From: Candidatus Methylacidiphilales bacterium
Lineage (GTDB): Bacteria > Verrucomicrobiota > Verrucomicrobiia > Methylacidiphilales > CAZTYG01
NCBI GenBank assembly: GCA_033875315.1
Contig: JANRJG010000023.1
Location: forward strand, 1 to 55,460
Direction: 5' to 3'
DNA: 55,460 bases
In this document: positions 21,424 through 55,353 of the stretch, piece after piece
Layout of the letters: every line of letters begins with the position of its first letter
Numbering within the stretch: position 1 is the stretch's first letter
Translations under genes and position numbers: made by a program
Notes under the pieces: generated by a model
Database searches by the model: none
Seen by the model: the letters and a program-made list of their open reading frames with translations, nothing else
What the model was told of the DNA's origin: nothing

Positions 21424-21497
21424 CGGAGCGTAGCGCAGTTTGGTAGCGCGCTTGGTTTGGGACCAAGAGGCCCCGGGTTCAAATCCCGGCGCTCCGA
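21424..21497 (+). tRNA. tRNA-Pro (anticodon TGG)
   Basis: A 74-base cloverleaf: acceptor CGGAGCG (21424-21430) pairs with CGCTCCG (21490-21496), discriminator A at 21497; anticodon stem CTTGG/CCAAG encloses the loop TTTGGGA, giving anticodon TGG; the T arm is CCGGG-TTCAAAT-CCCGG. CCA is not encoded. The 3' end is copied in the two direct-repeat units that follow. Confidence 0.97.
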
Positions 21498-21815
21498 TAA
21501 AGAGTATTTCGCGAGGCGAACGTTGTCCATCGATTAGAACCTTCAGGTTCAGCGCTGCGTCCGTAAGGACTTTATTCCATCGCCCGAAGGGCCATCTCGC
21601 ACAGCCCCGCGTTCCTCACGGGGATCAATTCCGGCGCTCCGATAAGGAGCATTTCGCGAGGCGAACGTTGTCCATCGATTTGAACCCTTGGGTTCAGCGC
21701 CATTCACGAAGTGACCGTTTCTCATTGCCCAAAGGGCCATCCTGCACAGCCCCGCGTTCCTCGCGGGGATCAATCCCGGCGCTGATAAGGAAATCTTCTC
21801 TAAGCGAACATTCCC
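21487..21815 (+). repeat. Tandem 145-base repeats copying the 3' end of tRNA-Pro
   Basis: Anchored on CGGCGCTCCGATAA, copies begin at 21487 (inside the tRNA), 21632 and 21777 (partial, decayed; CC lost before GATAA), a period of exactly 145. Each full unit holds a chain of short hairpins: TTCGC-GAG-GCGAA (21508, 21653), GAACC/GGTTC, a 4-bp hairpin that differs in sequence between copies, GCCC/GGGC, and a 7-bp CCCCGCG/CGCGGGG stem. No convincing reading frame lies inside. The layout recalls the rtT repeats behind E. coli tyrT. Whether it is transcribed with the tRNA is not known. Confidence 0.8.
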
Positions 21816-21911
21816 CATTCCCTATTTCGAATCCATCATCTGCACTCAGAAAAATAAAACTTGCCGCCCCCCTCCTTCACCGGCATTCTGGAAAGCTTTC
21901 CCATTCCCATT

Positions 21912-54874: not shown

Positions 54875-54879
54875 GTGGA

Positions 54880-55280
54880 CTGAGGCGATAAGCCGAATTT
54901 TGTTCCCCGCGGTTTCACACGCGGTTCGATGATCATTTCTCTCCCCGCCGGTTGCCCGGCGGGACCCCGCCTGCGCGGGGTGCAGCCTACCCGGGGGGAT
55001 TCCGCTTGCGCGGAAGGTCAGGCAACCTCCCCCCTGTTCGGCCTTGCACCATCCAGGGTTTTTCGTGCCCCCCCGGTCTCCCGGAGGGCGGTGGGCTCTT
55101 ACCCCGCCTTTTCACCCTTACCCATCCTTGTGGGATGGGCGGTTTGTTTTCTGTGACACTCTCCGTCCACCACCGGTTACCCGATGGCGTCCCGTGTGTT
55201 CTCCACGGTGGACTGCCTGAGGGTGTTCGGACTTTCCTCTCCGGCTTCCTTGCGGTCGCCGCAGCGATCATCTGCCTCAA
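54880..55280 (-). ncRNA. rnpB: RNase P RNA (class A)
   Basis: Read on the minus strand, the P1 arms TTGAGGC (near 55280) and GCCTCA (near 54880) enclose conserved blocks: GAGGAAAGTCCG (55239-55228), GGTAAGGGTGAAAAGGC (55122-55106), GGTAAGAGCCCACCG, the GGGTAGGCTGC stretch, AGAGAAATGATC (54942-54931) and the 3' CAAAATTCGGCTTATCG. These match the catalytic core of class A RNase P RNA, which trims tRNA 5' ends. The exact ends are approximate. Confidence 0.95.
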
Positions 55281-55353
55281 GGTTGACGCTATCACATCCC
55301 TGCCCCGGGACAAGCTCTTAGAGCCTATCCGGATAACCCGCGTGACCCGCGCT

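Follow-up and report, generated by a model that had tools for sequence, protein, structure and literature searches.

Tandem hairpin-chain units behind tRNA-Pro(UGG) that copy the tRNA 3' end and carry segments antisense to the host T-loop

The tRNA-Pro(UGG) gene of this Candidatus Methylacidiphilales bacterium is followed by an array of hairpin-rich units, which are, on balance, probably tandem small non-coding insertion elements of the kind known as rtT in Escherichia coli, targeted at the tRNA T-arm and 3' end. Short units that copy the tRNA end sit behind this gene and roughly twelve more tRNA genes in the genome. Outside this genome, similar tRNA-tail units occur in other families of its order, in two more families of the class and in one archaeal MAG. 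That an rtT-like anatomy, set at the same 57|58 nucleotide, recurs at many tRNAs, in an archaeon as well as in several lineages of bacteria, suggests a widespread kind of tRNA-targeting element rather than a local oddity. It also poses a testable question, namely how non-coding elements of such small size locate essential RNA genes and persist in them, and it offers a plausible role for the small GIY-YIG nucleases linked to tRNAs.

Anatomy of the array behind tRNA-Pro(UGG)

The features of the array are listed below by their positions in the window, the whole 55,460-nt stretch of DNA that was analysed. R1 is a covariance model built on the first half of the unit.

21424..21497, + strand: tRNA-Pro, anticodon TGG (ARAGORN and Rfam)
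21477-21485, + strand: T-loop of tRNA-Pro(UGG), GTTCAAATC; position 58 is 21482 and position 73 is 21497
21482..21498, + strand: original copy of the duplicated segment, A58-N74, AATCCCGGCGCTCCGAT (repeat search; boundary from 20 host/unit pairs)
21499..21626, + strand: body of unit 1, a non-coding chain of hairpins H1-H5 (R1 match at 21506-21555, a training unit)
21508..21520, + strand: H1 of unit 1, TTCGC GAG GCGAA
21532..21540, + strand: anti-T-loop of unit 1, GATTAGAAC, 8/9 complementary to the host T-loop
21537..21550, + strand: H2 of unit 1
21559..21570, + strand: H3 of unit 1, GTCC GTAA GGAC
21582..21592, + strand: H4 of unit 1, GCCC GAA GGGC
21605..21623, + strand: H5 of unit 1
21627..21643, + strand: first downstream copy of tRNA A58-N74, one mismatch
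21644..21771, + strand: body of unit 2, H1-H5, non-coding (R1 match at 21651-21700, a training unit)
21677..21687, + strand: anti-T-loop of unit 2, GATTTGAACCC, a perfect 11-nt complement of tRNA positions 21475-21485
21704..21714, + strand: H3 of unit 2, TCAC GAA GTGA
21727..21737, + strand: H4 of unit 2, GCCC AAA GGGC
21750..21768, + strand: H5 of unit 2
21772..21786, + strand: tRNA 3' end, second downstream copy, lacking 2 nt
21787..21822, + strand: decayed third unit, start only, with an approximate end; a stable fold is no longer present (fold z +0.63)

A repeat search resolved the array into two ungapped 145-nt copies that are 82% identical (21482-21626 and 21627-21771) and the start of a third at 21772. 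The tandem 145-base, hairpin-rich repeats that a first-pass annotation of this DNA had described behind tRNA-Pro are therefore real, and the description understated them. The same annotation had each unit begin with the 3' end of the tRNA. Copies of this end are indeed present (CGGCGCTCCGATAA at 21487-21500 and 21632-21645, and the decayed form CGGCGCTGATAA at 21777-21788), but the true register is A58 (21482), 5 nt before the start then given. The pair of hairpins with different stem bases (GTCC/GGAC versus TCAC/GTGA) also exists and corresponds to H3 of the two units. In both units the anti-T-loop runs into the second hairpin: the last 4 nt of the segment in unit 1 are also the start of H2, and the segment in unit 2 overlaps H2 (21681-21696).

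In the array Rfam matched the tRNA and nothing else, at thresholds up to E=1. The folding energies of single sequences are weak support for structured units, with fold z values of -0.86 and -1.69 for the window units and -3.25 for the unit behind tRNA-Pro(GGG). The genes downstream of tRNA-Pro(UGG) are an omega/Rpb6-like gene and smpB. In three relatives the tRNA-Pro(UGG) gene beside smpB is free of units, and in G017 it has a GIY-YIG remnant. The tRNA is divergent from smpB in those relatives, so the locus has also been rearranged. Elsewhere in the window, a gene for a bacterial class A RNase P RNA lies at 54875-55283 on the minus strand.

Units behind other tRNA genes and in other genomes

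A census of all tRNA genes in the genome placed hairpin units behind nine of them (two Pro, one Ala, three Ser, one Tyr and two Leu). Most of the tRNA-tail units of this genome are chains of hairpins with a stretch complementary to the host tRNA. For example, a BLAST search of the array against its own genome found a match ~50 nt behind a second tRNA-Pro (anticodon GGG), which is followed by one full unit whose last part repeats the 3' end of this tRNA (AAATCCCGGCAGCCCGACCA). The remaining hosts are Ala-GGC, Ser-GGA and Ser-CGA (two units each), Ser-TGA, Tyr and the two Leu tRNAs. A copy of the host's own 3' end is clear at 7/9 loci and degraded or absent in both Leu cases. The third tRNA-Pro (CGG) has no unit in this census. 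Scanned over the whole genome, R1 gave 13 strong matches, all behind tRNAs, and the next best was at chance level. Because the model had been trained on these 13 units, what counts is that it matched nowhere else in the genome.

Two other features were seen near tRNAs of this genome. The minus strand of locus L033 has a decayed 5' half of a tRNA-Pro (GGCTGTAGCACAGCTTGGTAGTGCG...) ~100 nt upstream of the intact tRNA-Pro(GGG). Furthermore, a dispersed palindromic repeat (GGGAGGGCGAAGCTCC...GGAGCCTCGCCCTCCC) recurs near tRNAs at L037, L050 and L033.

The first-pass annotation had proposed a search of related genomes for the unit behind other tRNA genes, and with R1 this search recovered units in other families of the order. 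All seven R1 matches in genome G001 lie behind tRNAs (two of them recognised by inspection only, with no ARAGORN call), and none was used in training. The Ser-GCT gene of this genome is followed by a three-unit array with a 141-nt period. At the level of the class and under strict filters, R1 matched in the order only. A looser pattern, consisting of a T-loop and a downstream anti-T-loop with the variable positions free to differ, detected units in two more families of the class (a Ser-CGA array in G168 and Asn-GTT in G113). This indicates that the order-only result of R1 reflects its limited sensitivity and not an absence of units. A stricter fixed pattern, run over named genomes, identified Verrucomicrobial MAGs and a Thermoplasmatota archaeon (G647), in which a tRNA-Val carries the full set of an inverted 3' end, a 13-nt antisense and a 3' copy at +129.

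Some matches were rejected. Three R1 matches (L107, L109 and L110) were judged false because their sequence looks like coding sequence. Carriage by phages was likewise discarded: the two viral pattern matches have no tRNA and look like chance matches in coding sequence. Identical coordinates indicate that G650 appears to be G002 and that G646 appears to be G029. Two contigs labelled Blastochloris sp. (JAAUTS010000134.1) and Akkermansia muciniphila (CAMCYL010000036.1) have the coordinates of G029 and G002, from the window's own order, and the labels look wrong. As for variant layouts, the tRNA-His array of G001 (L221) has a 97-nt period, copies the T-arm in full and includes a segment, CGAACCCGC, antisense to its own T-arm, and the Leu-GAG unit of the same genome (L238) looks like a recombinant of two unit types.

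Host-matched antisense, duplication boundary and hairpin loops

A 9-nt segment, 28-45 nt downstream of the tRNA, reads as the reverse complement of the T-loop of its host. Host T-loops differ (GTTCAAATC, GTTCGAATC, GTTCGAGTC, GTTCGACTC, GTTCGATTC) and the unit segments track them in 194 of 198 letters. The 22 segments were chosen by eye at the GAAC before hairpin 2 and follow their host with a permutation p=5e-6 (p=3e-4 for the window's own genome alone), and an independent measure, the longest antisense to the own host versus other hosts, gave p=5e-5; all of these values are optimistic because related sequences are non-independent events. The match is not always complete. Unit 1 of the window has 8/9 antisense letters and no long antisense match, and the second unit behind Ser-GGA, like that behind Ser-CGA, mismatches its host at one letter. 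The T-loop is fixed by tRNA function, which makes the unit the adapting partner. This adaptation to the host is good evidence for the importance of pairing with the tRNA or with the gene that encodes it.

The units stand as tandem arrays directly behind tRNA genes, and ~17 nt of the host tRNA, from A58 to N74, are duplicated at the far end of each unit. The limits of this duplication were read from 20 host/unit pairs. On the left, the boundary falls at 57|58, with the unit matching its host in 14/20 pairs at position 58 versus 4/20 at position 57. The right end lies at 74, since the match is 20/20 at positions 73 and 74 and 15/20 at position 75.

The units are also rich in short hairpins. In 25 units from several genomes we counted 102 of them, versus 39.7 +/- 5.2 in dinucleotide shuffles, and about half have GNA or GNNA loops. 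Among triloops, 31/56 are GNA (0.8 expected), and among tetraloops 19/33 are GNNA (0.6 expected), only 7 of which are GNRA. When closed by G-C pairs, GNA and GNNA loops form extraordinarily stable DNA mini-hairpins (PMC4686876). Such DNA-type loops are compatible with folding as RNA too. In most units the 5' arm of the first hairpin is the tRNA's own 3' end (e.g., CACCGC GTCA GCGGTG), a feature absent from the window units, so the first hairpin is also matched to the host. Furthermore, H1 has compensatory changes on both sides. Selection on unit structure is thus supported by the compensatory changes, by the presence of the same hairpin chain behind other tRNAs and by its conservation in relatives. 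The first-pass annotation had suspected selection at the level of the RNA; the structural part of this proposal holds, but the frequent DNA-stable loops and the small share of GNNA loops that fit GNRA (7/19) do not favour the RNA level. We also considered an RNA conformational switch and rejected it. In model folds the acceptor stem is formed with the distal 3' copy, and equally so when the interiors are shuffled, which makes this a property of the duplication alone and not of an interior tuned for switching.

Relation to known elements and alternative explanations

The closest likeness is to rtT of the E. coli tyrT-tyrV locus (rttR, tpr; RF00391), which also consists of tandem units (178 nt) behind a tRNA. 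At the end of the tyrV/tyrT repeats, TAAT precedes the tRNA sequence from position 61 onwards, meaning that the rtT duplication also starts at A58. Like the units described here, rtT has C(GCA)G and C(GAA)G hairpins, although their number is not above shuffles, and it has a 10-nt segment, GGGGAAGGAT, antisense to its own tRNA-Tyr (p=0.005; <=7 nt with the other hosts tested). However, the rtT antisense pairs with the T-stem and acceptor, whereas the units here pair with the T-loop. Furthermore, rtT occupies one tRNA locus (tyrT) in the records inspected, in contrast to the nine tRNAs of the window's genome, and we identified no counterpart of tpr. The first-pass annotation had pointed to the rtT layout and regarded the sequences as unrelated. 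Indeed, no match was found either way, neither between the units and Rfam RF00391 nor between R1 and the rtT loci L309 and L310, but the likeness goes further than was noted and extends to the 57|58 boundary, the host-antisense segment and the GNA-loop hairpins. rtT and the units are built alike, a likeness that falls short of showing common descent.

Of 5,426 E. coli genomes covered by a near-identity search (L309 is the K-12 locus), 4,680 have rtT, each at 1-9 places, and 746 gave no match. In the records inspected, the restriction of rtT to tyrT looks like vertical inheritance with changes in unit number, which counts against a mobile element. Candidate rtT copies on 'plasmids' of E. coli, Klebsiella and Salmonella were dismissed, as each of the four inspected regions proved to be the tyrT locus of the chromosome (purU-narI). 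To our knowledge, the rtT repeats of tyrT have so far been treated as a local curiosity. A literature search in a library with few subscription journals found no description of tRNA-tail repeats or of tRNA-linked GIY-YIG elements.

In IS200/IS605 (Y1 HUH) and REP elements the cleavage site is recognised by short hairpins and by guide segments that base-pair, and in this general description these elements resemble the units. They differ in that they are not known to make a target duplication. A Y1/HUH transposase was rejected as mobiliser for lack of correlation, because the archaeon G647 has none and unit-free genomes have many.

Genes for small GIY-YIG nucleases share the location of the units. 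They resemble the units in their position behind tRNAs and in the duplicated 3' part of the tRNA, whereas the window units are non-coding. Eight of the nine small GIY-YIG ORFs of the genome lie directly behind tRNAs (Gly, two Met, Ser-TGA and Ser-GGA; binomial chance 2e-17), and tRNA-linked GIY-YIG genes were found in this genome as well as in G001, G010, G168, G002/G650 and G029. ORFs of 79-112 aa in this position include those of L047, L050, L063, L070 and L072 in the window's own genome and of L229, L274 and L180. In pairs from the same tRNA across families and orders, GIY-YIG identity is 69% for elongator Met and 58% for initiator Met; in other pairs it is mostly 25-40%. Judged by these identities, GIY-YIG lineages go with particular tRNA isotypes, a pattern expected for homing endonucleases.

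The tRNA-Met array of G168 (L274, 1090-1660) contains, in order, a 134-bp non-coding unit, a 357-bp GIY-YIG unit and a further non-coding start. The 134-bp and 357-bp units have both ends in common; most simply, the shorter one is an internal-deletion form of the GIY-YIG unit. In the window's own genome the tRNA copies of the GIY-YIG units begin at a more 5' position, a hairpin replaces part of the anticodon arm, and the GIY-YIG units have no ends in common with window-type units or with the Ser-TGA array. Furthermore, the GIY-YIG search gave no match in the unit-bearing archaeon G647 or in G648. The lack of common ends with hairpin-chain units and the two GIY-YIG-free genomes make the nuclease a candidate rather than a demonstrated mobiliser. 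In L274 the copied part of the tRNA starts in the anticodon loop and a hairpin, TCCCGCTCAGCGGGA, replaces part of the anticodon arm. L050 and L063 contain tRNA-Met tail copies with a hairpin at the place of the anticodon arm, a design that recurs in other tRNAs and genomes.

We propose that insertion would enter the tRNA gene at T-loop position 57|58 and duplicate A58 to ~N74 (~17 nt), leaving the tRNA intact. The duplication would regenerate the site, so that further units could join in tandem. The anti-T-loop segment and the arm of the first hairpin may act as base-paired address or recognition structures in a single-stranded, probably DNA, form, with the antisense segment directing or licensing insertion. 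The units would then be mobile, their folding would matter in DNA rather than RNA, and the tRNA-linked small GIY-YIG nucleases, which are of the homing-endonuclease type, could cut in trans in at least some genomes. A more specific version, which is conceivable but doubtful, treats the units as guide-addressed mini-elements (~130 nt). The anti-T-loop and the 3'-end-complementary arm would serve as programmable tags for re-entering a particular tRNA gene as folded ssDNA or RNA with a trans-acting nuclease, and E. coli rtT would be a relic.

The units could instead encode a functional trailer RNA, co-transcribed with the tRNA and processed off to act in trans, as an rtT-like RNA or an sRNA sponge, or tuning tRNA maturation by pairing with the T-loop, with the 3'-end duplication as a by-product of tandem amplification. 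The 3' external transcribed spacer of E. coli leuZ, a sponge, is a functional RNA from a tRNA trailer, and we know of no repeat or copied tRNA end in it. The position of the units on the same strand directly behind tRNA genes, their conserved structure with two-sided changes, the T-loop antisense matched to the host and the annotated small RNA of E. coli rtT, RttR, are all consistent with such a role. However, the loops are often GNA or GNNA with few of the latter being GNRA, the interiors steer the pre-tRNA fold no further than the duplication itself, and a trailer RNA leaves the fixed 57|58 boundary and the ends in common with GIY-YIG units unexplained. We therefore consider it a rather unlikely explanation.

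Repeated integration and loss of larger elements could also leave direct repeats and small leftovers behind if a tyrosine recombinase or a casposase-like integrase used the tRNA 3' end as its core site. The T-loop and 3' end are typical locations for integrases, and a duplication of ~17 nt fits in length. Casposons, for example, make target duplications, most of family 2 lie in tRNA genes, and the casposase of A. boonei targets the 3' end of tRNA-Pro (PMC6614799). The units lie behind the same 3' end, and their 17-nt duplication (A58-N74) may be of this kind. In contrast, casposons are flanked by terminal inverted repeats and encode Cas1 among other proteins, whereas the units are ~130 nt and non-coding. 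Moreover, the interiors of the units are homologous structured sequences of similar length rather than random leftovers, they carry host-matched antisense, and no integrase gene was present in the loci read, all of which makes attachment-site remnants an improbable source. Least probable is plain tandem duplication of the tRNA 3' end and spacer by replication slippage, with neither mobility nor function, the simple case that the first-pass annotation had set against its own reading: the tandem layout and variable unit number (1-9 places for rtT, three units at 141 nt behind Ser-GCT in G001) agree with it, but homologous interiors behind non-homologous tRNAs (Pro, Ala, Ser, Leu and Tyr), within and between genomes, the sharp common 57|58 boundary, the host-matched antisense and the excess of hairpins with a preferred loop type contradict it, so that it stays plausible for array growth only.

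We also identified GIY-YIG ORFs that are flanked not by tRNAs but by a palindromic repeat, TCATCCTGAGCTTGTCGAAGGATG, in G014 and G015 (L080 and L082). Hairpin repeats and nuclease may be combined here in a sister arrangement.
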